DNA of 64,000 nucleotides, taken from Simiduia agarivorans SA1 = DSM 21679 (GTDB lineage: Bacteria > Pseudomonadota > Gammaproteobacteria > Pseudomonadales > Cellvibrionaceae). A program made the translations under genes and the position numbers. Numbering within the stretch: the first letter of the stretch is position 1; the number at the start of each line of letters is the position of its first letter. Positions 5,115 to 60,300 of this stretch are shown here, piece by piece. Location: NCBI RefSeq assembly GCF_000305785.2, contig NC_018868.3:3518270-3582269 (forward strand), given 5' to 3'. The notes below the pieces were generated by a model, which had not been told where the DNA came from, ran no database searches, and saw only the letters and a list, made by a program, of their open reading frames with translations.

Positions 5115-5813
5115 TCAGTTCAGTGAAAATTCCACCGGGATATGCACCCGGCTGGCCAGCGCCTGGCCGTCGACCCGGTAGGGCAGGAAGCGCCATTGAC
5201 TCACGGCCTCCAATGCCGCCTGGTCGAGTGCGGAAACGCCCGAGCTGGCTAACAGCGATAAATCATCGGGACTGCCGTTGGCATCGAGGGTTACCGCCAG
5301 CCAGACAGTGCCGGTCTGGCCGCGGCGGCGGGCCAGCATGGGGTAGCGGGGCGGTTGCGGCGGTTCGGCGAACAGCGGGGTGTCCATCAGCGGTAATTCG
5401 TTCGGGCCATTGTGCAATGGCTGCTGGACCGGTGCCGCGGGTGCTGCCTGTGCATCGGGCGCTGAGTCCTGGATGGTGTCTTCAGGCGCGGGTTCTGCCC
5501 GGGCCGGTTGCGCCAGCGCCGGCTGGGGGGCTGGCAAGGGCTCGGCGACGGGTTCGGGTTTTGCCGGCACAGGTGCCGGCGTAATAACTTCTTTTGCAGG
5601 CGCCGGCTTTGCAGGCGCCAGTGGCCGTGACTGCTGGACAAACGCCAGCGTCAGTGATGCCAGTGGCGCGGCGCTGGAGGAGGCCAGGGTGAGCGGCGAC
5701 GACGGATGCCATTGTGGCAGCAGCAACATTGCACCCACGCACAATGCCAATGCGGCGCGCTGGTGGCGGCTGCATTCCCAGGTATTGAGCGAGTGTGTGG
5801 TAGACAGTGGCAT
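5115..5813 (-). CDS. tonB: TonB energy-transducing protein of the heme locus
   Basis: A 232-residue protein with a single N-terminal membrane anchor (about residues 20-38), a long periplasmic Pro/Ala-rich spacer (about 70-130, with repeated PAP/PEP units) and a C-terminal TonB domain from about residue 150 (MLARRRGQTGTVWLAVTLDA and QAALEAVSQWRFLPYR). It would span the periplasm and transmit ExbB/ExbD energy to the heme receptor. It is the first gene of the leftward operon, with a predicted promoter at 5846-5874 that overlaps the Fur-like palindrome. Confidence 0.92.
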   Translation of the reverse strand: MPLSTTHSLNTWECSRHQRAALALCVGAMLLLPQWHPSSPLTLASSSAAPLASLTLAFVQQSRPLAPAKPAPAKEVITPAPVPAKPEPVAEPLPAPQPALAQPARAEPAPEDTIQDSAPDAQAAPAAPVQQPLHNGPNELPLMDTPLFAEPPQPPRYPMLARRRGQTGTVWLAVTLDANGSPDDLSLLASSGVSALDQAALEAVSQWRFLPYRVDGQALASRVHIPVEFSLN

Positions 5814-5845
5814 GGATGTCGGGGTGGTTGTTTTAGTGTTTTACC

Positions 5846-5874
5846 AGTATGCACAGACAAGATGTTAATGTAAA
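5846..5874 (-). promoter_or_regulatory. Predicted sigma-70 promoter for the tonB-exbBD-hmuTUV operon
   Basis: On the minus strand there is a -35 TTTACA (5874-5869) and a -10 CATACT (5851-5846) with exactly 17 bases between them. The -10 ends 33 bp before the tonB start codon. The -35 box lies inside the left arm of the palindrome at 5868-5896, as expected for an operator that blocks polymerase binding. This is a prediction by eye. Confidence 0.55.
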
Positions 5875-5896
5875 TGATAATGACTCGTATTTACAT
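5868..5896. promoter_or_regulatory. Fur-like palindromic operator between divergent heme operons
   Basis: The arms ATGTAAAT (5868-5875) and ATTTACAT (5889-5896) are perfect inverted repeats around a 13-bp centre that contains GATAATGAC. The AT-rich sequence and the GATAAT core resemble a Fur box. Position supports this: the site is midway between divergent heme uptake operons and overlaps the -35 elements of both predicted promoters. Fur binding is inferred. Confidence 0.65.
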
Positions 5897-5918
5897 ATTT
5901 AAAAGGCGTCGTTAGAAT
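5890..5918 (+). promoter_or_regulatory. Predicted sigma-70 promoter for the heme receptor-hutX-hutZ operon
   Basis: A -35 TTTACA (5890-5895) and a -10 TAGAAT (5913-5918) are separated by 17 bases. The -35 lies in the right arm of the Fur-like palindrome and mirrors the leftward promoter, so one bound repressor could close both. This leaves a 5' untranslated leader of roughly 125 nt before the ATG at 6049. The leader contains a possible AGCCCC/GGGGCT stem but no element I recognise. Confidence 0.55.
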
Positions 5919-6048
5919 GGCGCCCTCGCTCAGCCAGCCGTACCGGTCAGCCATGCGCATTTGAAAGCCCCAGCCGCACAAGCAGCAATGCGGGGCTGCA
6001 ACACTGACTGATCAATGACCCGGCGTGGTGCCGGGCGCGGAGCTGACC

Positions 6049-8070
6049 ATGTACCGACACCTTTCCCGGGGCCTCGTGCCCGCCTCCCTGTTTTCTACGC
6101 TGGCCTTGTCGGCGAGTCTTGCGCAGGCCGAACAACAGACGTTTGAACTGCAATCGGTGGTGGTCAGCGCAACGCGGGTCAATCAAAACCAGGTCGAGGC
6201 CAACCGCTCGCTCGCGGTGGTGACCCGCGAACAACTGGATATCAAGCAACCGCAAACCGTGGCGGAAGCGCTGCAGGCGGAGCCGAATATCGAAATCAAT
6301 GGCGGGCCGCGTGCTTTCAACCAGCAAGTCAACATCCGGGGCCTGAGCGGCAACAAAGTGCTGCAAACCGTCGACGGCGTGCAGCAGCGGTTTGAGTCCG
6401 GTCACCGACCCAGCTACTTCTTGGATCCGGTGCTGATTCAGCAAGTGGAAGTCATCAAGGGGCCGGCCTCCAGTTTGTGGGGCAGTGGCGCGGTGGGCGG
6501 TGTGGTCGCCATGCAGACTATCAGTGCGTCGGACCTGCTGGCGCCAAATGCAAACTTTGGCGGGCTGGTGAAGACCGGCTACACCGACAACAACGCCCAC
6601 AGCGCCTCCACGCTGGCGCTGGCTGGCCGCTCCGGCAGCGTGGACTGGCTTGCCAGCGGTTATTACCGCGACGGTGATGACCTGGAAATGGGCAACGGCG
6701 AAACGTTGCTTGGTTCCAAAACCCGGGACTTTGGCGGCATGCTGAAAATGGATTGGGCGCTGGCAGACAACCAGCTGTTAACCGCACAAATCCGCGAAGC
6801 CCAGGCCGTGGGGCAGGTGCCATCAAATGGCTCTGCCGACAGTAACGGCAGCAGCAATTTTGATATCAATCGCGAACAAACCGTGCGCAATGCGCAGTTG
6901 AACTATGCCTGGGATGCCGATGCGGATTGGCTCAATCTGCAGGCGTCTGTTTACCTGAATGATGTGACCATGGATGAAAGCCGCGTCAGCGACGGCCGGG
7001 CCGACAGCACCGAAAGCCGGACCGTGGGCTTTAACCTGTTGAATCAATCCAACACGGGCGCGGTGGAATGGTTGTATGGCGTGGACGGCTACCGCGAATC
7101 CTTTTCCGCCAGCCGCAGTGGCGATAACCGGCCAACACCGCCGGATGCGGAAAACGATGTGGTGGGTGCGTTTGTCAGTGCCGGCATTCCGCTGACTGAA
7201 TCCTGGCAACTGGAACTGGGTGCGCGTTACGACCGCTTTGCCACCCGCGCCGACAATCTGGCGCAGGATCGCTCCGACAGCGCCACGTCACCCACGGCGG
7301 CGATCACCTGGAAAGCCACCGATTGGTTGCGCATGAGTTTGCGTCACGACCAGGCGTTCCGCGCGCCGGGTTCGGAAGAGCTGTACACCACCGGCTTTCA
7401 CTTTTGCATGTTCCCCGGTTTCTGTAATGCCTTTGTGCCCAACCCCGGGTTGAAAGCGGAAACCGCGGCCAATACCGAATTGCTGGCGCAACTGGGCTTC
7501 GACAATGTCTGGGGAGAGGATTACCTGACGCTGGAAGCCTCGCTGTTTAACAATCGGGTGGATGATTTTATTGAGCAGATAGTGGTGGGCCCGAGCTTTG
7601 GTCCGGTGATGGACCCGGGTTACACCACCTGGGTGAACGTGGATAAAGCCACCATCAAGGGTTTTGAACTCACCGCAGAATACTTGCGCGCCAACTGGAA
7701 CCTGAAGCTCGGCTACGGCCAGACCCGCGGTACCGATGACAACACCGGCGAAGACCTCACCGGCATTCCCGCCGATAAATGGACGCTCGACGGCGCCTAC
7801 CAGTTTTCCGGCACCGGCGTTAAAACCGGTGTGCGGTTGATGGCGGTGAACGAACAATCGCGCACGGATTACGCGGCAAACAGCACCGGCCAGACCTACG
7901 ACGGCTACACCATCGTCGATGTTTATGCCCAGTGGCAACCGGCGTCGTTGAACGGTTTACAAGTGGATCTGGCACTGAACAACCTGACCGATGCCTACTA
8001 CCGCCGGGCCTGGTCTGAACTGTACGAACAAGGCCGCGCCATTACGTTGAGCGCCCACTATCGCTTCTGA
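6049..8070 (+). CDS. TonB-dependent heme/hemoglobin receptor
   Basis: A 673-residue outer-membrane receptor. I chose the ATG at 6049 (GGAG six bases upstream, followed by a good signal peptide ending ALSASLAQA) over a GTG at 6025. The N-terminal plug (about 35-150) starts with a TonB-box-like ELQSVVVSATR, and the rest is a beta-barrel ending in Phe (LSAHYRF). The heme-receptor signature is visible: a FRAP box at residue 437, a His at 451, then an NP(G)L box at 465. This is the arrangement in HemR/HmuR in which the His between the boxes helps take heme. It is the first gene of a rightward operon with hutX and hutZ. Confidence 0.9.
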   Translation: MYRHLSRGLVPASLFSTLALSASLAQAEQQTFELQSVVVSATRVNQNQVEANRSLAVVTREQLDIKQPQTVAEALQAEPNIEINGGPRAFNQQVNIRGLSGNKVLQTVDGVQQRFESGHRPSYFLDPVLIQQVEVIKGPASSLWGSGAVGGVVAMQTISASDLLAPNANFGGLVKTGYTDNNAHSASTLALAGRSGSVDWLASGYYRDGDDLEMGNGETLLGSKTRDFGGMLKMDWALADNQLLTAQIREAQAVGQVPSNGSADSNGSSNFDINREQTVRNAQLNYAWDADADWLNLQASVYLNDVTMDESRVSDGRADSTESRTVGFNLLNQSNTGAVEWLYGVDGYRESFSASRSGDNRPTPPDAENDVVGAFVSAGIPLTESWQLELGARYDRFATRADNLAQDRSDSATSPTAAITWKATDWLRMSLRHDQAFRAPGSEELYTTGFHFCMFPGFCNAFVPNPGLKAETAANTELLAQLGFDNVWGEDYLTLEASLFNNRVDDFIEQIVVGPSFGPVMDPGYTTWVNVDKATIKGFELTAEYLRANWNLKLGYGQTRGTDDNTGEDLTGIPADKWTLDGAYQFSGTGVKTGVRLMAVNEQSRTDYAANSTGQTYDGYTIVDVYAQWQPASLNGLQVDLALNNLTDAYYRRAWSELYEQGRAITLSAHYRF

Positions 8071-46007: not shown

Positions 46008-46057
46008 CGGCTTTGGGTGGCCCTTGTGGCGTCTGCACCGGGCCGGGGAGACAGTGG

Positions 46058-46870
46058 ATGGATTGGTTGCAAAGGGAAGTCGAACTCTGGCTGAATATTT
46101 TTGCCATCGACACGGCCCGTTATTTTGTCGGCGTGGGTGCCGTGTTGTTTGTGCTGTTTGTACTGGCGCGAGTCTGGTCCGAGCGTTACCGCATTCAATC
46201 CCGGCGGGCGACACGCGCCGATGTCAGGCGTGAGATCAGCTGGTCGCTGCTGACCACAGCCGTCTATGCCTGTGTGGGGCTGTTTACGGTGCGGGTTGAG
46301 CAAGGCGGTGCTTCGCTGATTTATTTCAAGGTGGAAGAATGGGGGTGGCTGTACACCTGCCTGAGTCTGCCGCTGGTATTGATTGCTCACGATGCCTATT
46401 TCTATTGGGTACATCGGGCCTTGCATCACCCGCGCCTATTCAAAGCGTTCCATCGACTGCACCATCTCTCGCGCACACCCACTTCTTGGGCGGCCTACAG
46501 TTTCGCGCCCGGTGAAGCCATACTGATGGCCTTGTTCATGCCGTTGATCGTGGTGCTCATGCCCTTACACGTGTCGGTGATTTTCGTGTTTCTTGCGGTG
46601 ATGATTGTGCGCAACGCCGTGGGCCATTGCGGGGTGGAGTTCCATCCTCGCTGGTGGCTGGATTCGCCTCTGGGTTTCCTGAATACGCCAACCCATCACG
46701 ACCTGCACCACCAGAAATTCAATGGCAATTACGGGCTCTATTTCACCTGGTGGGATAAGTGGATGGGGACAGAGTTTGAAAACTACAAAGCCGCCTTCGT
46801 GAAAGCGGCCAGCGGCGGCGAACCGGTTGCAGGTGCCATCGAGCCGTCAGAGCCGGCGGCCGAGCGTTAA
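46058..46870 (+). CDS. Sterol desaturase/fatty acid hydroxylase family protein
   Basis: 270 residues from ATG 46058 (GGGGAGA ribosome site); a GTG 45 bp upstream is less likely. It is an integral membrane di-iron enzyme with the eight-histidine pattern: HDAYFYWVHRALHH, FHRLHHLS and a C-terminal HHDLHHQKFNGNYG, plus His in VGHCGVEFHP. Five or so helices surround these. It would hydroxylate or desaturate a lipid (fatty acid, sterol or hopanoid) using O2 and an electron donor. It is convergent with the PagL-like gene, overlapping by 24 bp. Confidence 0.9.
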   Translation: MDWLQREVELWLNIFAIDTARYFVGVGAVLFVLFVLARVWSERYRIQSRRATRADVRREISWSLLTTAVYACVGLFTVRVEQGGASLIYFKVEEWGWLYTCLSLPLVLIAHDAYFYWVHRALHHPRLFKAFHRLHHLSRTPTSWAAYSFAPGEAILMALFMPLIVVLMPLHVSVIFVFLAVMIVRNAVGHCGVEFHPRWWLDSPLGFLNTPTHHDLHHQKFNGNYGLYFTWWDKWMGTEFENYKAAFVKAASGGEPVAGAIEPSEPAAER

Positions 46871-48705: not shown

Positions 48706-49332
48706 TTACAGATCCCTGGATTCGACGATAGAGATCCCCGGCCTTGGCGCCAGTGCTGAGTTCAGCATTGCCTGTGCAATCTGCCCGGGTCGGACCGATC
48801 GGTATTGCCGGGGTATCAGGGGGTTGAGTAGCCGGCATAACCAGATGGCCAGTTGCTCCGCGGGCCTGGGCTGCGCCCGCGCTGTATCAATCAGGGATGG
48901 CCGGACCCAGGTGACACACGGGTAGCCCAAGGCCGCGACGCCACGTTCCGCCTCATGTTTGGTGCGCAGATAGAAGCTGCCCCTGGCACTGGCACCCACG
49001 GAAGAATTCAGGATGAAATGACTGGCCCCTCTGGCCCGCGCAAGCTTGCCGATTGAAATGGGCAGATCACGGTCAATGCGCGCGAAGGCTGCTTGCGAGC
49101 CCGCCTGCTTGATGGTGCTGCCCAATGCACAGATCACTGCATCCGCGCGCCAATAATCAGCGCCAGGATCAAGCGCGGTAAAATCCACGACCGGATTGTC
49201 GAGTTTTACATGGGTGTTGCCAAGCGGGCGGCGTGTGGGTGCAATGAGCCGGGAAATGCGTGCCTCGCTCAGCGCCAGATCCAGCACAGCCGAACCCACC
49301 GCGCCGGTGGCGCCCAGCAATAGCAGGCGCAC
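48706..49332 (-). CDS. NAD(P)H-binding atypical SDR-like protein
   Basis: A 208-residue Rossmann protein of the NAD(P)H-binding (NmrA/HTATIP2-like) group. Motif LLLGATGAVGSAVLD starts at residue 3; ADAVICALGSTIKQAGS, FILNSSVGA and FYLRTKHEAERGVAALGYP follow, the last carrying a Y/K pair in SDR-like position. It is the last gene of the leftward eight-gene operon, directly abutting the cobalamin adenosyltransferase gene (adjacent bases 49332/49333). It may supply a reductase step or be a redox sensor. Confidence 0.82.
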   Translation of the reverse strand: MRLLLLGATGAVGSAVLDLALSEARISRLIAPTRRPLGNTHVKLDNPVVDFTALDPGADYWRADAVICALGSTIKQAGSQAAFARIDRDLPISIGKLARARGASHFILNSSVGASARGSFYLRTKHEAERGVAALGYPCVTWVRPSLIDTARAQPRPAEQLAIWLCRLLNPLIPRQYRSVRPGQIAQAMLNSALAPRPGISIVESRDL

Positions 49333-49899
49333 TTAAACGCCCTGCTGCCACAGCACTTCCTGGCCACCATCGCGGCGCGCCACTGTGCGCGCGGCAACAA
49401 ACAGGAAATCCGACAGCCGGTTAATGTACGCCTGCAGCGTGGGCCGGGTGCCGGGCAGGGCTGATTGGGCATCGGCCGCCGACAGTGCCGCAATGGTGCG
49501 CTCGGCGCGCCGGCACACCGCCCGCGCCTGATGGGCGGCGGCGGCAGCTTTGGAGCCGCCGGGCAGAATAAAGTTCTTCAACATGGGCAGGTCGTCGTTC
49601 AGCTGATCCAGCCATTGTTCCAGTTCGGTGGCGTGCTCTTCTTTAATCAGGTGGTAATCCGGCAGGCACAACTCGCCGCCCAGATCAAACAGCCGGTGCT
49701 GGATGCGCGCGAGCCAGGGTTGCAGGGCGTCGTCGTTGGCAAGCTCCGCCACCAGTAAGCCCACCGCGCAATTGGTTTCATCCACATCGCCGATGGCCTG
49801 CATGCGCAAATCGTATTTGGCAATGCGCACGCCATCGCCCAGGCCGGTGGTGCCATCGTCGCCGGTGCGGGTGTAAATTTTTGATAATCGGTGGCCCAT
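49333..49899 (-). CDS. PduO-type cob(I)alamin adenosyltransferase
   Basis: A 188-residue ATP:cob(I)alamin adenosyltransferase. Signature pieces are YTRTGDDGTTGLGDG (ATP-binding, residues 8-22), the MQAIGDVDETNCAVGLL helix, and RAVCRRAERTIAAL, which carries the conserved R-R-A-E-R. It makes adenosylcobalamin, the cofactor of radical enzymes. No B12-dependent enzyme is visible in the window. Its place 17 bp after the Rieske gene in a biosynthetic operon is noteworthy and may be incidental. Confidence 0.93.
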   Translation of the reverse strand: MGHRLSKIYTRTGDDGTTGLGDGVRIAKYDLRMQAIGDVDETNCAVGLLVAELANDDALQPWLARIQHRLFDLGGELCLPDYHLIKEEHATELEQWLDQLNDDLPMLKNFILPGGSKAAAAAHQARAVCRRAERTIAALSAADAQSALPGTRPTLQAYINRLSDFLFVAARTVARRDGGQEVLWQQGV

Positions 49900-49916
49900 T
49901 TGGCGTCCTCTTTTTT

Positions 49917-50942
49917 CTACAGATAAAGTGTTGCCTGACGATTTACGATACCGCCATTGGATTGTTGTTCGAACAATGTGCGCAATGCGGGGCCCATCAG
50001 GTCGTGCCGCGCATCCAATGGTTTGCCGTGCATCAACGCGTCGGGGTGTTGCTCAAATGTGCGCCGGTTGTGCGTCACCGCTTCGGTGATCGCGATGTCC
50101 TGCTGCAACACCCGCCGGAACAGGGGCGTCAGCAACATTTGTTTTACGCGCGCGGGCAACAGGCCGCGGCGGGTACTGATACGCGCAAACAGCTGATGCC
50201 GTTCATTTTCAACGGGCGTGATCCACAGGTCGACCCGCAGGGTCAGGCGCTGTTGGGCATCATGATACTCAATCTGCGCAAGATTGGGCCACAAAAAGCG
50301 GCCCCAGCTGGCGCCCCGGCTGGGCTCAAATAAGCGCGACAGCCAGCCGTTCTGGGTTTGTTCATTCTGATACGCCACTTCAATCCCGCCGTCGATCGGG
50401 CGCAACAGCGCATCCACTTGCTGGCGTTGGGTATCGCGCCGCACCAGCCCGCGGTGGACAAAGTGGGTGTGAAACGCCTCCAGAAAATTTTCCGCGATAT
50501 CGAGCAGCGTGGCGTCGACCGTAGACTGCATAAAAAATTGGTCGACCCCGTTGGATTCATCTGGCAAGTTGAGTGGGGCACCGGCCTCGGTCTGCACCCA
50601 AATCAGCCCGGCGGATTCAACGCACCCCAAGGCCCGCACCAGCGGCCTGCGGCTCAATGCGTGTGCATCCTGCATGCCCGGTATCCGGACACAGCGACCT
50701 TGCCCATCGAAGGTCCAGCCGTGATAGGGGCATTGAATCTGCCCTTGCGTGCATTGCCCCTGACTCAGGGGCGCCATCCGGTGTGGGCAGGCGTCGACCA
50801 GTGCTGCCGGTTTTAGTTCATTGGTGCGGAATATCACCAGGGGCAGCCCGTTCAGCTGACGGCGCATCGGGCGATCGGCGCTGAGCTCGCGCGCGACGGC
50901 CACCGGCCACCAGCATTGGGATCCATCGGGAAAAGCTGTCAT
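49917..50942 (-). CDS. Rieske-type aromatic-ring-hydroxylating oxygenase alpha subunit
   Basis: A 341-residue Rieske non-heme iron oxygenase. The Rieske ligands are Cys52-x-His54 (ACPHRMAPLSQG) and Cys71-x2-His74 (CPYHGWTFDG). The mononuclear iron site is suggested by AENFLEAFHTHFVHRG (about 158-172). Size and sequence resemble the single-chain monooxygenases of the VanA / chlorophyllide a oxygenase type, which take electrons from a separate reductase not seen here. It overlaps the ATP-grasp gene by 4 bp, so it belongs to the same pathway and likely adds a hydroxyl or removes a methyl late in assembly. Confidence 0.9.
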   Translation of the reverse strand: MTAFPDGSQCWWPVAVARELSADRPMRRQLNGLPLVIFRTNELKPAALVDACPHRMAPLSQGQCTQGQIQCPYHGWTFDGQGRCVRIPGMQDAHALSRRPLVRALGCVESAGLIWVQTEAGAPLNLPDESNGVDQFFMQSTVDATLLDIAENFLEAFHTHFVHRGLVRRDTQRQQVDALLRPIDGGIEVAYQNEQTQNGWLSRLFEPSRGASWGRFLWPNLAQIEYHDAQQRLTLRVDLWITPVENERHQLFARISTRRGLLPARVKQMLLTPLFRRVLQQDIAITEAVTHNRRTFEQHPDALMHGKPLDARHDLMGPALRTLFEQQSNGGIVNRQATLYL

Positions 50943-53209
50943 AGTTTCAATAGCTTCATGAGAGGAACGCCCAGGGTTTTCAGCAACAGGGAAAGTATTG
51001 TCCAGGCCAGTCGGCGATGCAGCGGCAAATGCCGGATATACACCAGCGAGTATTCAATGGCGGGCTCGCCGCCCCGCAAGCGTTTAAAGCCCGCGGCACC
51101 GGAACTGAAATTCAACAGCAGGCGTTGTTGCAATGCCCGGGCGATACACAGGTGAGTGAGTTGACGGTATAAACCCAGACTTTGGGGAAGCGAAGTATCG
51201 TAGCCGACAATCGGCGCGGTCAGCGTATCGCCCAGGGCAAAAAAGCCCACCACACCCATCAGCTGCGTATCGGGCGCGCGTAACCCTATCAATTCGAGCC
51301 AGCCATCGCGGTGGCCGGCGGCGAGCCATTGCGCCGTATATTGTGGATTCAGCGGCGAGTATTTTTCCAGATACAGTTGGTTGTAGAGCGATTCCGCACG
51401 CACAAAATCCGCGTCGGTAAAGTCGGCGCCGGGCACTTGGGTCAACCCGGATGTTTCGAACAGTTTGCGATCAATTTTATTGTTGTGTCGCTGTGCAATG
51501 CGCTGAGCACCGTCAGGGTTGCGCGCATCAAACAGATACACCTGCCGGCTCGGCACTGTGATAAAACCGAGCCTTCGCAGATTGCTGATCAGGCTGGCAT
51601 TGCTTGTGTGATTCAACGAACGGAACCCGACGGCATTGTCCGGGTTGGCGTGCAGGCATTCAGCCAGCGCCGTCTGGATTTCCTGCTGGGAAAAATGCTG
51701 CGGGTAGAGGTTGGTGGATAACAGCCAGTTGTTGATGTGGGTCACATCATCCAGACGCGCTTTGCCGAGCAATGTGCCGATTATCGCTATCAGTTTTTGC
51801 AGGCCATGGCCCAGCCAGGCGGGCCGTATCAGGTAACACTCGTAGCGGGCGTAATCAATGTAAGTGGCCATGGGTGATACCACATAGCAATTGTCTGGCT
51901 CGCCATGATTGATTGAGCAGGGCACCGGGTAGCCCCCCAGCGTCACCTGCGTGAGCTGGGTCCTGAGGTTTCTGATGGTCTGATTCTGCCGGCTTGCCAG
52001 CAGGCGAACATAGGCGTGCGTTTTTGCGGTAAGTCGTTGTCGCTCCGGACCGAGACTGCACGCAGGCAAGTCATTGCCATCCCATTCGATATCCCGGGTA
52101 GCGGCCGCCAATAATCCGGTGCGGTGTCGTAGGGCCCGCCATAAAATTTCTGTAAAAGGTAGCAGCTGCAGCCAACCGGGCCGACGATCATGGGCCAGCC
52201 ACAGCACGTCGTCGGCGCGCACGATGTCGCGCCAGAAAGTCCGCGAAAAATAATGCGGCAAGCCGAAACTCAACATGGCCAGAATAACCATGAGAGGCTG
52301 GCTGGGCGGTTCGGCTTTTTCCTGCGTCCGGGTCAGCACGTGTGTTAACGAGGGGCAGTTGGCCAGCAGGTGAATGCCGCTGGTGGCCCGGGGGTTACAT
52401 TCGAGCAACCAGAATTTGCCGTCGGCTGCGCGAATGAAATCAAAACCCACCTGGCCGGTATAACTGGTGGTTTGCCCGAACTCGGCGAGAAAGGCGGTGA
52501 TGTCCGGGAAATCATGCGGTTCAAAATACATGCCCGAGCCTTGCCCGGCACGATAGCGGGGTTGGTACACGCAGTGCGCCAGTAATTTGCCGTCGCGCAG
52601 CAGGCTGTAGGAGCAGTATTCGGTACCGGCCACGAACCGTTGGGCGATCCACGGATTGTGCGCATCATGGGCAAGATGGTTTAAGGCGTCGGCCTTGGGT
52701 TTGATTAAGGTGCGATTGGCGAAGCGTGAATAGGCGGGTTTGAACACCCATTGCTCAGGCGTCTGACGCAGGGCGTCCGGTATTGGGCGCCCGTGCAGAA
52801 CCCGGGTTTCCGGTGTGCGGATGGACCAGCGTTGACTCAATTCCGCAAACCGGCCCTTGTGGTGCAGTTGCTGCATCAGCTCAAAATCGGCGCACAAAAA
52901 TTCGGTTTCCGTACGCAGCCACGGTTTGCAGTGGCTCAGATAAAACGCTTCTTCGCAGGTGGGTATGACCCACTGGATCTGATGCTGGGTTAAGAACTCA
53001 TTCAGCGTGTTTGCCCAAGCCGCGAGCTGGGTGCGCGGTGGCGGTAAGTGAAGAAACCCCTGGCTGTAACGGCTGAAGCGCGCAAGCGGAAATGCCAGCG
53101 AGTCTGCCAGCCACACCTGATAGCCTTCGCGGCCAAGACGTCGCACCCACTCCAGCGCTGCGGGCGCGCGTGCACCCAGCACCAGGATTTTGTCAGGCGC
53201 CGTTTGCAT
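50939..53209 (-). CDS. ATP-grasp ligase fused to a FemAB/GNAT-like acyltransferase
   Basis: A 756-residue two-domain protein. Residues 1-320 form an ATP-grasp ligase: an N-terminal Rossmann-like part (ILVLGARAPAALEWVRRLGREGYQVWLAD), ATP-binding loops and the metal-binding FWLLECNPRATSGIHLLA. After a linker with a WxxDI-type segment, residues about 470-725 resemble FemX/GNAT transferases, with DSGAAGFK-type FSSGAAGFKRLRGGEPAIEYSLVY at the end. ATP-grasp enzymes activate acids as acyl phosphates for amide formation, and FemX-like domains transfer aminoacyl groups from tRNA. The combination implies peptide-like tailoring. It overlaps the adenylating gene by 17 bp. Confidence 0.78.
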   Translation of the reverse strand: MQTAPDKILVLGARAPAALEWVRRLGREGYQVWLADSLAFPLARFSRYSQGFLHLPPPRTQLAAWANTLNEFLTQHQIQWVIPTCEEAFYLSHCKPWLRTETEFLCADFELMQQLHHKGRFAELSQRWSIRTPETRVLHGRPIPDALRQTPEQWVFKPAYSRFANRTLIKPKADALNHLAHDAHNPWIAQRFVAGTEYCSYSLLRDGKLLAHCVYQPRYRAGQGSGMYFEPHDFPDITAFLAEFGQTTSYTGQVGFDFIRAADGKFWLLECNPRATSGIHLLANCPSLTHVLTRTQEKAEPPSQPLMVILAMLSFGLPHYFSRTFWRDIVRADDVLWLAHDRRPGWLQLLPFTEILWRALRHRTGLLAAATRDIEWDGNDLPACSLGPERQRLTAKTHAYVRLLASRQNQTIRNLRTQLTQVTLGGYPVPCSINHGEPDNCYVVSPMATYIDYARYECYLIRPAWLGHGLQKLIAIIGTLLGKARLDDVTHINNWLLSTNLYPQHFSQQEIQTALAECLHANPDNAVGFRSLNHTSNASLISNLRRLGFITVPSRQVYLFDARNPDGAQRIAQRHNNKIDRKLFETSGLTQVPGADFTDADFVRAESLYNQLYLEKYSPLNPQYTAQWLAAGHRDGWLELIGLRAPDTQLMGVVGFFALGDTLTAPIVGYDTSLPQSLGLYRQLTHLCIARALQQRLLLNFSSGAAGFKRLRGGEPAIEYSLVYIRHLPLHRRLAWTILSLLLKTLGVPLMKLLKL

Positions 53210-54551
53210 GATGGCCTCGGAACAGAAGGCGACGGACTTTGTCCCCGGGTTTGCCAGCGGTCCAGATTTGGAGAGTGAGCGATGGCGCTTCGAGCGCGTG
53301 AGTCCGGAACAGGATCTGCAGGTGTGCCGCCAGCGCTGGAAAGTGTTGCTGATCGGATTCGGTTAATTGTATCAGCCAGCGATCCAGTTCTTGAATAATC
53401 CGGTAATCCTGTAACGGCGGGTTGAACGCCAGCAGATGTTGTCGCACGGTATCCGGGAACAGCGGCTTAATGGTTCCGTGCTCTCGGCATGTGGCGTAAA
53501 GCACTTCGTCCGCGCGCCCCTCAATGCCGGCGATGGTGGATTCGGCGCGCCCACAGCTGCAGGGTGTGGCGCGGGCGAGTAAAATATCATCTAACCGATA
53601 GCGCACAATGGCCTGACTTTCCCGTGAAAAATCGGTGATGACTGGGTGGAATCGGGTTTTTTCTTCATCAATCCATTGGCGTTCTATTATCAGGTGGGTT
53701 TCGTTTAGATGCAGGCCGCCGGCTTCGCAGCTGTAACCCAAAAATCCTTCCGTTGCCTGGTAGATCTGTCTCAGGCTGGCTGCCGGAAAAACCTTGCTGA
53801 TCAGCGCGCGGACGTTTTCATCCAGCACTTCGGCCACACTGACAATGTCGGTGGGTGCAATGCTCAGTTTGCCCTGTTGTTGCCATTCACACAGTTGGTG
53901 CAGAACGGAGGCTGGTGCGACCACCACCTGCGGGCTGAACTCATCGAGGTTGGCGCATTGATCCCACAAGGGTTTGGTTAAATCGAAGAAGCGGAAATCA
54001 ATGCGGCGGGTGTTGAGCGTTTGGTAAAGGTTGCTGTCGGCCCGGAGAAAAAAGGCAATGCGCAGCGGTGCGCGCCAGAAAAAAAGTATCTGTAGTAAAA
54101 GCTGCGCGGGCAATAACTTCGCTAATAAAATCCCGGCCCAGCGCGCCTGTTCATGTTCACTGACAAGAAATACCCCGGGCCTGCCGCTGGTGCCACTGGA
54201 AAGGCCCACGCTGAGCTCGCCGATTCCCGGCGTGAAATCCCGTGTGGCTTCGGCTTGTTGTGCAACGCTGAGCGCGTGTTGGATATTAATGGCGGCAATA
54301 TTGTATTGATCGAACTGCGCCAGCAGGGTGTTCTTATCGGATGTGGGCAGGCTCGCCAGCATGGTGGCTATCGACACGTTTCGCTCAGGTTCGGGGGTGT
54401 CGCGAAAGGCGCCGTATCGGCCAATTTTTCTGATGAACCGTGTTAACTGCCGTTGCTGTCGACGCGCCAGGGCTTGCGGGTTTAAATGCCGGAGCCACCA
54501 GCGCGTGTAGACAAAATGCCACAGCAGCCGCAACTTGTTGCCGATGGTCAT
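53193..54551 (-). CDS. Adenylate-forming enzyme, coenzyme F390 synthetase-related
   Basis: A 452-residue member of the phenylacetate-CoA-ligase/F390 synthetase-related clade. The P-loop GLSSGTSGRPGVFLVSEHE (116-134) replaces the usual TSGTTG-PKG, and IYQATEGFLGYSCEAGGLHLNETHL, VRYRLDDILLARA and GRAESTIAGIEGRADEVLY follow. It would activate an acid as the adenylate or CoA/ACP thioester. Its stop-start junction with the MBL gene is TAAATG with no gap. In bacteria of this type the gene is often found next to a FabH-like gene (recalled, not checked). The substrate is unknown. Confidence 0.82.
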   Translation of the reverse strand: MTIGNKLRLLWHFVYTRWWLRHLNPQALARRQQRQLTRFIRKIGRYGAFRDTPEPERNVSIATMLASLPTSDKNTLLAQFDQYNIAAINIQHALSVAQQAEATRDFTPGIGELSVGLSSGTSGRPGVFLVSEHEQARWAGILLAKLLPAQLLLQILFFWRAPLRIAFFLRADSNLYQTLNTRRIDFRFFDLTKPLWDQCANLDEFSPQVVVAPASVLHQLCEWQQQGKLSIAPTDIVSVAEVLDENVRALISKVFPAASLRQIYQATEGFLGYSCEAGGLHLNETHLIIERQWIDEEKTRFHPVITDFSRESQAIVRYRLDDILLARATPCSCGRAESTIAGIEGRADEVLYATCREHGTIKPLFPDTVRQHLLAFNPPLQDYRIIQELDRWLIQLTESDQQHFPALAAHLQILFRTHALEAPSLTLQIWTAGKPGDKVRRLLFRGHHANGA

Positions 54552-55394
54552 TTAATGCTTTCCATGGAATTTCCGGAACGCATCCGGGCAGTGGGACGGC
54601 AGAATCGACAGCTCGGGTTCGCGCCGGCTGAGTGTCGATAGATTTGTGAATGTGTGTTTGTAGCGCCGCCAGTTCGCGGTAAAAAATCCCACCAGGGGTG
54701 AAGGCAGTGCGCCCCGTTGACAGGCGGGCAGTGACCAGCAGGCATCGGCACAAAGGAGCACCGGGCCTTGTTGGCTGTGCGGAAGTAACAAGCCCAGCTG
54801 ACCGGCACTGTGGCCGGACAGATCAATCAGCAGCAAGCTGCCATCGCCCGCCATGTCCCAGCCGCGATCAAACGGCGCCATCCAGCCGGGCAGGTCCAAG
54901 GGTGCGAAGGTGTCTGCGTATTGCACGCGAGGCCAGAAATCCGTAGGTAGCAGGCCGGGTAAAATGCCTTGCGTCGTCGCACGCCAACGGCCCAGGGATT
55001 GCAAATGCATGCAGTCGGCACGGCTCGCAATAAAACGGGCCTTCGGAAAGTCTTTCAGACCTGCCACGTGGTCGCCGTGAAAATGCGAAATAATCACGCC
55101 CGCAATCTGCGCCGGTAAAATGTGTCGTTGCTGCAATTGGACACACAGTTGTTCATCGTGCGGCAAGTGGATCGGCAGCAATTGTTTGTACAGCTTTTCC
55201 GGATAGCGCGCGCAGGCAGAATCAAAATGGTTGGCGTAGCCGGTATCGAACAGCAGGTGGCCCAGCGTCGGGTGACTGATCAGCGCGCAATAGGATGGAA
55301 ACTCGGTCGATTGACAGGCCGCATCCCGGACCGCCATGCAGGCGAGGTGGTTGCAATGGCCGACTTTGAGAAAATCCACGGATACTGTGTTCAT
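54552..55394 (-). CDS. MBL-fold hydrolase, AHL-lactonase-like
   Basis: 280 residues from ATG 55394-55392, which overlaps the SDR stop by 4 bp; a longer start would overlap far into that gene. The metal-binding motif SHFHGDHVAGL gives His104, His106, Asp108, His109, with later ligands in DLSGHSAGQLGL and LLCADACW. This resembles AiiA/AttM lactonases and related thioester or lactone hydrolases. In the operon it follows a reductase and precedes an acid-activating enzyme, so it could cleave a lactone or release an acid. It is one of the core genes shared by this type of cluster. Confidence 0.85.
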   Translation of the reverse strand: MNTVSVDFLKVGHCNHLACMAVRDAACQSTEFPSYCALISHPTLGHLLFDTGYANHFDSACARYPEKLYKQLLPIHLPHDEQLCVQLQQRHILPAQIAGVIISHFHGDHVAGLKDFPKARFIASRADCMHLQSLGRWRATTQGILPGLLPTDFWPRVQYADTFAPLDLPGWMAPFDRGWDMAGDGSLLLIDLSGHSAGQLGLLLPHSQQGPVLLCADACWSLPACQRGALPSPLVGFFTANWRRYKHTFTNLSTLSRREPELSILPSHCPDAFRKFHGKH

Positions 55395-56389
55395 CGCAAT
55401 TGATCCCGATACCAGGTGGCGTAGCGGGCAATGCCCTCGTGTAAACTCACCCGCGGCTGATAATTCAGGTCGGCGCGGATGCGGTCCAGGCACAGGGTCT
55501 GGCTGAAGGCCATCACGCCCGCACTGTAACGGGTGAGCAGTGGCTCCTTATCGGGCGTCAGCTTGCCCAATCCCTCCAGACAACAGGCGATACCATACAG
55601 CACGGGCCAGGGCAGATTGCGCTTGCGCACGGTCAGATCAAACTGTGTGCTGATTTCGTTCAACAAATCGCTGATACAGATTGGTTGGCCATTGGACAGG
55701 TTGTAGGTGACCGAGCGGGCGGGCAATGGTTGGTGCAAGGCGAGCAGTACGGCATCCACCAGGTTGTCGATGTAAGTCAGGTCCACCAGCGCACGGCCCT
55801 GTCGGGGCGTGGGTACCGCGCTTTTTTCGATGACCCGCAGCAGTCGGGGCATCAGCGTGTTATCCCAGGGGCCGAAGATCGCCCGCGGCCTGAATAACAC
55901 GGTATTGGGTATCCGGCTTTCGCGTATCCGGGCTTCTGCCAGCGCCTTGGTGGCGGCGTAATGATTGACCGGGGGCGGTAGCACGGAATCTTCATCAATG
56001 TTCAGGCAATCGGCAAAGCGGAAATACAGGCTCGGGGTAGAAATGTGAATCAGGCGCTGTACGCCCTGCGATTCACAAGCGCTCACCACCTGTTCGGTAC
56101 TTTCGACATTGGCGCTGTAGAAATCGTGGTAGCGTCCCCACGGCGAAGATAATCCTGCGGTGTGAACCACCGCCTGATGGCCTTGGCTGGCCTGGTGAAT
56201 CTGTTTGCCCGCTTCGGGCGAGGCGTGATCAATGGCCAGCCATGTGACGTTGCCGGGCGAGTGTGCCAGTACCTGCTGTGCCGCACGTTCGTTGCGGCCG
56301 GTAAAGGTCACCTGGTGCCCCTCTGCGCTCAGTCGCCAGACAATGTGGCGGCCCACAAAGCCGGTTCCGCCCGTCACCAGTATGTTCAT
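55391..56389 (-). CDS. NAD(P)-dependent 3-beta-HSD-like reductase, OleD-like
   Basis: A 332-residue extended SDR. The cofactor motif is VTGGTGFVGRHI (residues 5-16) and the catalytic pair is Tyr144/Lys148 in HYAATKALAEARI. LLFRPRAIFGPWDNTLMPRLL and the downstream GRALVDLTYIDNLVDAVLLAL match OleD and related 3-beta-hydroxysteroid-dehydrogenase proteins. OleD reduces the 2-alkyl-3-keto acid made by OleA. Its start shares one base with the FabH-like stop, consistent with immediate use of that enzyme's product. This fits a beta-keto reduction step, although the exact substrate is unknown. Confidence 0.85.
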   Translation of the reverse strand: MNILVTGGTGFVGRHIVWRLSAEGHQVTFTGRNERAAQQVLAHSPGNVTWLAIDHASPEAGKQIHQASQGHQAVVHTAGLSSPWGRYHDFYSANVESTEQVVSACESQGVQRLIHISTPSLYFRFADCLNIDEDSVLPPPVNHYAATKALAEARIRESRIPNTVLFRPRAIFGPWDNTLMPRLLRVIEKSAVPTPRQGRALVDLTYIDNLVDAVLLALHQPLPARSVTYNLSNGQPICISDLLNEISTQFDLTVRKRNLPWPVLYGIACCLEGLGKLTPDKEPLLTRYSAGVMAFSQTLCLDRIRADLNYQPRVSLHEGIARYATWYRDQLR

Positions 56390-57393
56390 CAGTACTCCAG
56401 AATCGCGCCGCCAATGGACAGCCCGGCACCGGTACCAATGAGCAGCAGTTTATGCCCCCGTTGTATCCGGCCGTCGTGGATGGCGATGGCCAGTGCGGTT
56501 GGCAGCGACGCGGCCACCTGGTTGCCATGCCCGGCAAAAATGTTAATCACTTTATCGGAGGGGATGCCGAGCCGTCGCTCCAAATGGGACAGTGCCAGAT
56601 GGCTCGCCTGATGGGGTACCACCCAATCGATTTCGGCCAGCGATAATTGCGCGAGGTCGAGCAGCTCGTCGATAAAACCGGGAATTTTTTCGGCGGCAAG
56701 GCGGAATACCTTTTTTCCGTCCATTTTGAATCGGGTCAGCGGTGCGAACGGCTGATGGATTCTGCTCGGATGAAAACGGGAACCGCCCGCGGGTATTTCG
56801 CAAAAGTGCGCGCCTTCTGCATAGGTGGTTAACTGCGAAGCCAGTATCCGGCTTTGCTCGGTTTTCTGGCTGTCGCCGCCGATCACCACGGCCGCCGCAC
56901 CATCGCCAAAGATGGCGCTTTCTTCCAGCTGGTCCCAATTGAGGCCACAAGACGCCACGTCCGCTGCCACCAGCACAATGCGTCGGTAGCGACCGGCGGC
57001 CAACGGCCAGCGTAAATTATCGAGCGCGGCCAAAAAACTCAGGCAGCTGGCATTGATGTCAAAGGCCGGCATGGGCGGGCCCTTGAGTTCGTGCAGAATC
57101 AGCGCGGCATTGCTGGGTAAACCCTGATCCATGGTGCCGGAGGTGGCCACCAGGGCGTCGATCTGATCCAGCCGGAGCCCGGCATTGGCGAGTGCCCCTT
57201 CAACGGCTTGCGCCGCCATTGTCGCCGCCGTAAGTTCGGCTGGACAAAAATAGCGCTGAGTCACACCGCTGACCTGTGCAATCCGGCCCGCAGGCAGATT
57301 CAGTTTTGCATCGAGAGCGAGGCTGCTGACCGGATCGCCGGGCAGTGCCCAGCTTGAGCCCAGAATTCTAAGAGGGTGAACGTGTTGTGGCAT
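56389..57393 (-). CDS. FabH-like beta-ketoacyl synthase III
   Basis: 334 residues from ATG 57393-57391 (MPQHVHPLRILGSSWALPG). It is a thiolase-fold condensing enzyme with the full FabH triad: Cys117 (DINASCLSF), His261 (VVPHQASHLALSH) and Asn291 (FAGHGNQVAAS). The activation region FKMDGKKVFRLA and GGILEY-type ending are also typical. It joins two acyl units, or an acyl-CoA and malonyl-ACP, to a beta-keto product. It is the first gene of the eight-gene leftward operon 57393-48706. Relatives include OleA and polyketide starter synthases, and house-keeping FabH is unlikely given this neighbourhood. Confidence 0.88.
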   Translation of the reverse strand: MPQHVHPLRILGSSWALPGDPVSSLALDAKLNLPAGRIAQVSGVTQRYFCPAELTAATMAAQAVEGALANAGLRLDQIDALVATSGTMDQGLPSNAALILHELKGPPMPAFDINASCLSFLAALDNLRWPLAAGRYRRIVLVAADVASCGLNWDQLEESAIFGDGAAAVVIGGDSQKTEQSRILASQLTTYAEGAHFCEIPAGGSRFHPSRIHQPFAPLTRFKMDGKKVFRLAAEKIPGFIDELLDLAQLSLAEIDWVVPHQASHLALSHLERRLGIPSDKVINIFAGHGNQVAASLPTALAIAIHDGRIQRGHKLLLIGTGAGLSIGGAILEY

Positions 57394-57660: not shown

Positions 57661-60300
57661 CTAATCCAGCTTGGCCTGCGCGGCCACACAGCGGGTTTCC
57701 GCTTGCGCGGTCTTTTTCAGCACTTTGGTCACTGTACCGGCCAGGCCTTGCGTCTCGGCCAGCGCCAGGTAGTGGCTTTCGCCTTCCGCTTTACAATGGC
57801 GCGGCAGCAGGGCGCCGGCGAGTGTCGCCTGTAACGCCGGTTGCTGGGCATTGGTCAGCGCGTGGAAGGCAACCAGGATGTCTTGCTCCAGTTCGAGATT
57901 CAGCGCGTGCTGCTCCAACGGCATCATGCTGAACAGAATGGTGCGCAGATCTGTGTAGGCGTAGGTGGTGTCGGGATTACTCACTTCGGTCAGCCAGCGT
58001 TGCTTCACGGCTTTATCGGGCGCTTGTGATTCGGCGGCCAGGCGATTGAGTTTGCCCTTGTCCGAGCTGTCCTGCTGGCTCAGTTTTTCCAACCAGAGTT
58101 CGGCATCTTTGTGCCCGGTGCGCACCAGCATGCCGGCCAGGGTCCAACGGTCATCGGTGCCAAGTGTTTGGCCGGCCAGCAATTGGGTGGCGCGCTTCTG
58201 GTCGGCAATTCCTTTGGCATAGTCAGTCCACTGACCAAACCAGATGCGCTTGAGCGCGGGGTCGTCGGTCTGGAAGCCGGCCCAGGCCATGGCCGCCAAT
58301 TTCGCGCGATAGGCTTCCGCCTGTTCCGGGCCGAATTCGCGCACAAACGGGCGCAGGAATACGTAGCTGTATGCGCCCTGTACATTGCGCGCTACGGTAC
58401 CCAGCAGGGCCGGGTCGTTTTCTTTGGGCAGGTATTTCAGGCCCAGGTCGATGAAGCGGGTGGCGGCCAATTCGCCGTCAATCACGCTTTCCCACAGTGC
58501 GCGCCAGATCAACCCTTTTTGTACTGGATCGGTGAAGTCCGCCAGGTGGTTAGCCAGGTAGTTCACTGAGGTATCGTCGAACAGAATGCGGGCAAAGGTA
58601 TAGTCGGACGCGTTCAGTAACACGAACGCCGGGCAGTCGTAGCCGCGCACCTGTTCCTGGGCGGAGTTTTCGCCGGTGACCTGAATATCCACTAATGAGC
58701 GCGCGCCTTCGGTGCTGATCAGCAGTGCGTCCAGTTTGTGTTCGCGCAGTGCACCACTGACATTGGCGGGCGATTGATTGACCACAAAGCTGGTCACCAC
58801 GCCGTTGTCGCATTGCACGTCCGCTTTGAGCGCATTGGTGCCGGATTGTTGCAGCCACTGTTCGCTCCAGCCCGACAGATCGCGGCCGGCGGCTTCACCC
58901 AGCGTGCCCAGGAAATCATTCAGGTTGGCGTTTTTCCAGGCGTAGCGATCAAAGTGCAGCGCCAGGGCTTTCTGGAAAGTATCGGCGCCAATCAGGTGCT
59001 TCAACTGGATCAGGGTGGCGGCACCTTTGGCGTAAGTAATGCCGTCGATGGAGGCCATAACCACTTCGGTGTTGGGAATGTCCTGCACAATGGGATGCGT
59101 GGTATTCCACTGGTCTTCGGCGTAGCCCCAGCTCTTGCGGCTGGTGGAAAAGCTCTGCATTGCCTCAGTGTATTCAGTGGCTTCAGCGGTGGCGAAGTTG
59201 CCCATCAGGTCGGCAAAGCTTTCGTTCAGCCAGATGTCATCCCACCACTTCATGGTGACCAGATTGCCGAACCAATGGTGTGCCAGTTCGTGCATCACCA
59301 CCACCGCCATGCGCTGGCGGTCGGCGCGGGTTTTCTCGCGGCGGGGTTGCAGGCGTTCGGTAAAGGTGACGGCACCCACATTTTCCATGGCGCCAAACAC
59401 AAAGTCGGGCACCAGCAGCTGGTCGTACTTGCCAAAGGGGTAGGCGTATTCGAAATAGTTGTCGAAGAAATCGAAGCCCTGGCGGGTGACTTTAAACCAG
59501 TCGTCCACGTCAACGTATTGAGCATAACTCTGACGTGCGAACAGGCGCAGCGGCACGCGGAAGTCATTGTCTTCCCACACCTTGTAGGGGCCGGCGTGAA
59601 TGGAAAAAATGTAAGTGGAGAACAATTGCGTTTGCGGGAAGGTCCACAGCTTGCGGCCTTCACCGGCGTCTTCCACCGCGGATTCGCGCTTGGCGGTAAT
59701 CACTTGCCAATGGGCCGGTGCGGTAACGGTCATGCGGTAGGTGGCTTTCAGGTCGGGTTGATCGAAACCGGGGAACACCTTATTGAAGTGGTAGTCCTCA
59801 AATTGGGTGAACAGGTAGGTCTCGCCATCCTCCGCATCTTTGCTCCAGTGCAGGCCCTGACCGTCGCGACGGTAGGGGTGGGTGTAGGTGATTTCCACCT
59901 GCTGTGCCCCTTTGCGCAGGCTGGATGCCGGCAGGGTGATGAAAAAGCCGTTGTGGGGTGCGTCCACCACTGTGCCGTTGACCTTTACTTCGCTCACGGT
60001 GCCATCTACCAGGTCCAGCGTGAGTGGTGCGCTCGCATCGCTAAGGTCAAAATCAATCACTGTCCGGCCGCTGAAGGGGACATTGTCAGCGGGCAGATCC
60101 AGGTGCATCTGGTAGTGCACATTGCTCACCCGGGCCGCGCGCGAGGCGGCTTCAACGCGAGTGAGGTAGGGCGCGGCTTCGCGCGGTTCAACGCCGGGGT
60201 TGACGGTGTTCTGGCTACAGGCGCCGAGCAACAGGGCGGTGGTCAGGCCCGCCAGTAAGGGCAGGCGGCGCAATAGAGTCGATGTCATTCTGCGGTCCAT
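57661..60300 (-). CDS. M1-family aminopeptidase lipoprotein
   Basis: An 879-residue zinc metallopeptidase. The N-terminus has a lipobox LLLGACSQ with Cys28 as the lipidation site, so it should be anchored in the periplasmic face of a membrane. Gluzincin motifs are FGAMENVG (exopeptidase), MHELAHHWFGN (HExxH, about residue 336) and NESFADLMG (third zinc ligand). A C-terminal ERAP1-like helical domain occupies the last 350 residues. It trims N-terminal residues from peptides. An internal ATG at 60288 is an alternative start. It is divergent from the AraC gene with 109 bp between starts. Confidence 0.92.
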   Translation of the reverse strand: MDRRMTSTLLRRLPLLAGLTTALLLGACSQNTVNPGVEPREAAPYLTRVEAASRAARVSNVHYQMHLDLPADNVPFSGRTVIDFDLSDASAPLTLDLVDGTVSEVKVNGTVVDAPHNGFFITLPASSLRKGAQQVEITYTHPYRRDGQGLHWSKDAEDGETYLFTQFEDYHFNKVFPGFDQPDLKATYRMTVTAPAHWQVITAKRESAVEDAGEGRKLWTFPQTQLFSTYIFSIHAGPYKVWEDNDFRVPLRLFARQSYAQYVDVDDWFKVTRQGFDFFDNYFEYAYPFGKYDQLLVPDFVFGAMENVGAVTFTERLQPRREKTRADRQRMAVVVMHELAHHWFGNLVTMKWWDDIWLNESFADLMGNFATAEATEYTEAMQSFSTSRKSWGYAEDQWNTTHPIVQDIPNTEVVMASIDGITYAKGAATLIQLKHLIGADTFQKALALHFDRYAWKNANLNDFLGTLGEAAGRDLSGWSEQWLQQSGTNALKADVQCDNGVVTSFVVNQSPANVSGALREHKLDALLISTEGARSLVDIQVTGENSAQEQVRGYDCPAFVLLNASDYTFARILFDDTSVNYLANHLADFTDPVQKGLIWRALWESVIDGELAATRFIDLGLKYLPKENDPALLGTVARNVQGAYSYVFLRPFVREFGPEQAEAYRAKLAAMAWAGFQTDDPALKRIWFGQWTDYAKGIADQKRATQLLAGQTLGTDDRWTLAGMLVRTGHKDAELWLEKLSQQDSSDKGKLNRLAAESQAPDKAVKQRWLTEVSNPDTTYAYTDLRTILFSMMPLEQHALNLELEQDILVAFHALTNAQQPALQATLAGALLPRHCKAEGESHYLALAETQGLAGTVTKVLKKTAQAETRCVAAQAKLD

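Follow-up and report, generated by a model that had tools for sequence, protein, structure and literature searches.

The analysis of a 64,000-nucleotide stretch of Simiduia agarivorans SA1 = DSM 21679 (the window) revealed a set of six leftward genes that, on balance, is likely to be a biosynthetic cassette that moves horizontally and makes a decorated long-chain lipid. Four genes form its core and encode a ketosynthase (KS), an OleD-like short-chain dehydrogenase/reductase (SDR), a metallo-beta-lactamase (MBL) hydrolase with a lactonase fold, and an F390-synthetase-related adenylate-forming enzyme of family TIGR02304 (the F390-like enzyme). They are followed by genes for an ATP-grasp/GNAT fusion protein and a Rieske oxygenase. 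In the proposed pathway the KS would join two acyl groups, and by analogy with its closest characterised relatives both are most likely long chains. The SDR would reduce the new ketone, the MBL would free an acid by hydrolysing a thioester or lactone, and the F390-like enzyme would adenylate the freed acid. An exchangeable module would then finish the activated acid by amidation, glycosylation or oxidation, depending on the module. In the window, the fusion protein could attach an amine or amino acid as well as another acyl or aminoacyl group, and oxygenation could fall to the Rieske enzyme.

A genome scan with an alignment of F390-like proteins matched 562 loci, and the best 80 of these, which are the nearest relatives, were analyzed. 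Core partners were accepted when they scored at least 50 bits, were on the same strand and were located within 6 kb. The KS, SDR and MBL genes were all found near the F390-like gene in 72 of the 80 loci. Because recruitment had relied on a single protein, the presence of the remaining core genes in 72 loci is beyond chance. The 80 loci span eight phyla, with 58 loci in Pseudomonadota, and the complete core is present in six. Among the eight incomplete loci three reach a contig end (L086, L110 and L114), L107 has no MBL, and four cyanobacterial loci (L115, L116, L120 and L127) are without the KS. Two weak F390 matches served as negative controls (L056 and L057, the latter a short contig) and showed no other core gene above 30 bits. 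A TIGR02304 search of 369 genomes of the class placed two above the cut-off, the window genome and G238; the core is present in G238 and in the weaker-scoring G421. In the plasmid collection 55 records matched the F390-like protein, and all four core genes were present in each of the six records inspected, which were picked by eye from 15 listed (E. coli, Paraburkholderia, Paracoccus, Pontibacillus, Ketogulonicigenium and Fusobacterium). The Fusobacterium record brings Fusobacteriota as a seventh phylum with the core. The cassette DNA itself gave no match in this collection.

The earlier note on this DNA had described an eight-gene operon. All eight open reading frames (ORFs) are present on the minus strand at the positions it gave, the family assignments were borne out by Pfam and NCBIfam, and the junctions are as tight as it had read them, ranging from a 17 bp overlap up to a 17 bp gap. 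The unit, however, comprises six genes and not eight. In all three congeners an orthologue of the M1 aminopeptidase (57661..60300, minus strand; 61-68% identical) is present, and about 0.15-0.33 kb after it comes the gene for a PduO-type cobalamin adenosyltransferase (49333..49899, minus strand; orthologues 80-85% identical), with no cassette between them. The gene for a small NAD-binding protein (48706..49332, minus strand; 50-54% identical), which has weak Pfam matches only, comes next after PduO in the same three genomes, and AraC and carboxylase genes flank the other side as they do in the window. In the window 7.8 kb with six genes separates the aminopeptidase from PduO. Because the aminopeptidase gene adjoins the PduO gene in all three congeners, the last two genes of the proposed operon are residents now located downstream of the cassette; the cassette occupies positions 49917-57393, with the aminopeptidase as the upstream and PduO as the downstream boundary of the insertion. 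At a threshold of 50 bits, none of the 80 loci had PduO or the small NAD-binding gene in the vicinity of the F390-like gene. Among 58 genomes searched (own genome included), only four had a match to the F390-like protein at E < 1e-60; the three others belong to the same family and their proteins are 38-41% identical. This sparse distribution favours insertion over loss.

Two further features of this neighbourhood were recorded. In congener G003 (L153:5856-7146) pieces of the PduO, small NAD-binding, hydroxylase and outer-membrane-like genes are repeated beside intact copies; the extra PduO pieces hold stop codons, and the arrangement resembles a decayed duplication. A gene of the fatty-acid hydroxylase/sterol desaturase family in the window (46013-46870) was considered as a member of the system and rejected by synteny: it is 75-78% conserved in the three cassette-free congeners and 28-33% identical to the hydroxylases of module C, described below.

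The KS (56389..57393, minus strand; Pfam PF08541/PF08545) is a beta-ketoacyl-acyl carrier protein (ACP) synthase III (KAS III). As the earlier note had stated, its Cys-His-Asn triad is intact (C117, H261 and N291), and the active-site motif reads NASCLSF. Its PDB matches were CorB and MxnB (187 bits each), then the best FabH (144), PqsD (94) and OleA (60; 3row/3s23). The score against the housekeeping FabH family TIGR00747 (196 bits) was under the cut-off of 292.1, and so was the best NCBIfam match, PRK07204 beta-ketoacyl-ACP synthase III (NF005541; 365.7 bits, cut-off 402). For the phylogeny, KS rows were hand-picked for diversity from the window, 24 of the 80 loci, four further genome loci and, later, six plasmid-collection loci. 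Two of the 14 reference KS loci had no match and were dropped; one of these was the G010 cassette KS, which is retained in the tree as L051. Two long-branch rows (KAS_G010b and KAS_G038) were removed beforehand, leaving a tree of 50 rows. Thirty-four cassette KS and CorB/MxnB formed one clade (support 100/98). The KS of the actinobacterial locus L107 is outside this group and falls with OleA and related rows (100/99). A clade uniting the 34 cassette KS with OleA was rejected in the approximately unbiased (AU) test (p-AU 0.0055, with one OleA reference on a long branch, checked against PDB).

According to passages of PMC7064751, OleA Glu117, followed by Pro, is an essential general base. This column holds L, I or M in 28 of 29 cassette KS; glutamate was found in L107 only and in the OleA reference, and the E. 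coli and Fusobacterium cassette KS are likewise without it. On the absence of the glutamate and the rejection of the OleA clade, an OleA identity of the cassette KS was rejected, and strictly OleA-type condensation, as the earlier note had proposed, is not supported. The broader idea of that note, an undescribed biosynthetic core with condensation-reduction-activation logic, is supported. It was to be abandoned if the core genes were not conserved together elsewhere or if the KS grouped with housekeeping FabH; the core recurs in 72 loci and the KS groups with CorB/MxnB. The component families are known, and their combination and modular spread are not described in the open-licence literature searched, so that absence from print is not shown. 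In passages of PMC9823363, PMC5467263 and PMC5501837 a coenzyme F390 synthetase appears as an annotation, in the first of these among transposon-hit genes.

Passages of PMC5724707 report that MxnB binds two long chains and condenses them, and CorB/MxnB serve alpha-pyrone formation. Given this activity and the grouping of the KS with CorB/MxnB, chain fusion by the cassette KS is the leading, although unproved, reading. The KS could instead extend one acyl-CoA with malonyl-ACP; the SDR would then give a 3-hydroxyacyl product, the MBL would act as a thioesterase, and the F390-like enzyme and the ATP-grasp/GNAT protein would make an N-(3-hydroxyacyl) amino lipid. Retention of the FabH triad without the OleA glutamate agrees with this scheme, and the ATP-grasp half is folded like amine-coupling ligases, including amino-acid ligases. 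The scheme is nevertheless unlikely: the KS groups with CorB/MxnB and not with FabH, the replacement KS of L107 is OleA-like by the Glu-Pro test, and the reductase is nearest to OleD in NCBIfam.

The next three enzymes of the core would act on the condensed product. The SDR (55391..56389, minus strand) carries the TGGTGFVG and YxxxK motifs and is a probable 3-oxoacyl, perhaps 2-alkyl-3-oxoacyl, reductase; its best NCBIfam match (188 bits) is OleD, NF042422, which bears the name 2-alkyl-3-oxoalkanoate reductase. The MBL (54552..55394, minus strand) retains its metal ligands (SHFHGDH and further ligands), again as the earlier note had stated. It has the fold of lactone-opening enzymes and is nearest to the N-acyl-homoserine lactone (AHL) lactonases AiiA, AttM and GcL, with which it shares fold and metal-ligand motifs; against the NCBIfam lactonase families it reached at best 72.6 bits, short of the AttM cut-off of 390. 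The F390-like enzyme (53193..54551, minus strand) exceeds the TIGR02304 cut-off (379.3 against 251.9 bits; NCBIfam short name aden_form_hyp). A profile search of PDB aligned part of the enzyme with PaaK-type ligases, and all adenylate-forming motifs sought were found (SSGTSG, YQATEG, YRLDD, GRAD and K438).

The same enzymes could be read as a pathway to a beta-lactone or pyrone-type lactone, in which a hydroxy acid is activated by the F390-like enzyme in the manner of OleC and gives rise to a lactone, and the role of the MBL is to open this lactone or to provide protection from it. The lactonase fold of the MBL, the part of CorB/MxnB in alpha-pyrone formation and the OleD-like reductase are in line with such a pathway. 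We consider it improbable. None of the eight proteins was assigned to the OleC or OleB families by Pfam or NCBIfam, and the closest relatives of the F390-like enzyme are ligases of the PaaK type. The OleA glutamate is absent, and a lactonase of the same operon would open the ring. The beta-lactone closure suggested in the earlier note is therefore not upheld, there being no OleC match and the hydrolase having the fold of enzymes that open lactones.

The core is combined with different finishing modules (all module counts are out of the best 80 of the 562 loci). In the window, the first finishing gene (50939..53209, minus strand) encodes an ATP-grasp ligase (residues ~1-385) fused to a FemAB/GNAT-like acyltransferase (~386-756; PF13480). 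The ATP-grasp half is nearest to NF005315/PRK06849 (361 bits, under the cut-off of 406), and its fold is that of GAR synthetase, PylC and amino-acid ligases, with matches covering residues 2-367 of the fusion; a search of PDB with the GNAT-half profile gave no relative of note (best E 0.49). The Rieske non-haem iron oxygenase (49917..50942, minus strand; PF00355) has the CxH-CxxH cluster site and a D/E-x2-H-x4-H iron site (ExxHxxxxH), and its nearest solved relatives are dicamba demethylase DdmC (87 bits) and SxtDIOX (76 bits). ATP-grasp was found in 47 loci, GNAT in 42, and the core together with ATP-grasp, GNAT and Rieske in 34. In most other loci having both, ATP-grasp and GNAT are separate adjoining ORFs. 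A natural fusion of a GNAT domain to a Rieske domain (P0157, 572 residues) was also found, and the two kinds of fusion support a functional linkage of these enzymes.

Other loci carry other modules. A GT21-type glycosyltransferase (module B) is present in 13 loci. It is accompanied in 12 of them by a second, GT1-like transferase, and in 11 by a protein of some 200 residues that has no match in Pfam (e.g. L052:6577-7173). PAP2, fatty-acid hydroxylase and desaturase (module C) were found in 11 loci, including L061, which also has the whole ATP-grasp set. L100 encodes an FkbH domain and a carrier domain together with an N-terminal domain that Pfam does not match, and in L105 a related N-terminal domain is combined with an adenylation and a carrier domain; we read the N-terminal domain common to both as putatively condensation-like. 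Other glycosyltransferases are present in L058 and L130. In L107 (9917-16724) the OleA-like KS, with its Glu-Pro signature, is accompanied by a P450 where most other loci have Rieske. No finishing module was detected in L108, L110, L114, L122 and L127. Most of the swapped modules come from families with lipid substrates or sugar-transferring activity (GT21, GT1, PAP2, fatty-acid hydroxylase and desaturase), and since such families recur, a lipid is the likeliest product. A catabolic or quorum-quenching operon, in which a lipid or signal is broken down by the lactonase together with the acyl ligase, the dehydrogenase and the oxygenase, would suit an MBL nearest to AHL lactonases and a Rieske enzyme nearest to dicamba demethylase, but is hardly credible for a core that holds a condensing KS with an intact triad and is joined to anabolic glycosyltransferase, adenylation-carrier and FkbH-carrier modules.

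On the Paracoccus and Ketogulonicigenium plasmids, sulfotransferase and TetR genes are divergent from the core (L205:2390-3463; L207:2380-3393); the sulfotransferase is perhaps a further finishing module. In several Pseudomonas loci (L082, L085, L078 and others; ~5500-7060) the region just upstream of the core holds conserved ORFs, about 220 and 260 residues long.

The form found in E. coli has seven genes, the core being joined by PAP2, a member of the sterol desaturase family and an acyl-CoA desaturase. It is located between narGHJI and purU (two records, L203:5029-11910 and L209:5001-11882), and a tRNA-Tyr gene adjoins it in an ST131 chromosome. DNA matches to this form were found in 672 of 5426 complete E. 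coli genomes, and in 671 of these they covered at least 80% of its length. Among the records inspected, the RefSeq annotation of the cassette genes is generic only.

Several points weigh against a mobile cassette for a decorated long-chain lipid. Membership of a clade does not fix the substrate of the KS. Cassette KS alone as a clade were not rejected (p-AU 0.39), so CorB/MxnB, on their long branch, may be sister to the cassette clade rather than inside it. The PDB matches of the L107 KS are about equally close to FabH (103 bits) and OleA (99 bits), and no MBL was found in that locus. Of the five cyanobacterial loci, four have sufficiently long flanks, and a KS was nearby in none of these; hence the KS is not always linked to the core. 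The SDR is far under the OleD cut-off of 580 bits, and its best PDB match is sterol-4-alpha-carboxylate 3-dehydrogenase (74 bits). Pfam and NCBIfam detected no carrier protein in the window cassette, and L108 and L122, with the core complete, show no known finishing module. Conservation was gauged on nearest relatives, the 80 loci being the best of 562. Insertion in the window and loss in the three congeners are not strictly separable, although the distribution favours the former, and neither GC nor GC at third codon positions marked the cassette as foreign.

Overall, there is a fair chance that the cassette, a variant of the condensation-reduction-activation lipid pathways, makes a new lipid class. 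A more specific proposal is possible but somewhat doubtful: a hitherto unrecognised class of two-chain bacterial lipids, neither glycerolipid nor sphingolipid, would be built by CorB-like KS fusion, reduction and activation, would carry swappable head groups (amino acid, sugar, glyceryl, perhaps sulfate), and would have reached at least seven phyla by transfer, with about one in eight of the complete E. coli genomes searched carrying it. Should the cassette make a lipid of the kind proposed, it would place a chain-condensation route beside the Ole hydrocarbons and sphingolipids, give TIGR02304 a role, and make a lipid of common gut and clinical bacteria directly testable.

The cassette resembles several known systems in part. 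The PqsA-PqsD-PqsE quinolone pathway likewise brings together an adenylating enzyme, a KAS III and an MBL (gene roles given from general knowledge), but PqsD is a weaker match to the KS and the cassette MBL is nearest to AHL lactonases. GT21, fatty-acid hydroxylase, desaturase and PAP2, the families of modules B and C, are linked to sphingolipid finishing; the core of the cassette, unlike the sphingolipid route, is KS-based. The Pbo cluster of Pseudomonas syringae pv. phaseolicola combines a KAS III-like protein, a nonribosomal peptide synthetase and an ATP-grasp ligase, but was rejected as a match because the gene-table passages of PMC8473136 list no F390-like enzyme, MBL or OleD. CorB and MxnB, the alpha-pyrone KS of corallopyronin and myxopyronin, share with the cassette KS the clade, the Cys-His-Asn triad and the NASCLSF motif; the cassette differs in having a four-gene core with reductase, hydrolase and ligase, without the polyketide assembly lines that feed CorB and MxnB. 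The OleABCD/OleADC olefin and beta-lactone pathway is similar in condensation, OleD-like reduction and ATP-dependent activation. The cassette KS, however, groups apart from OleA and is without its Glu117-Pro, and in place of OleC and OleB, which found no match, the cassette has a TIGR02304 enzyme and a lactonase-fold hydrolase.

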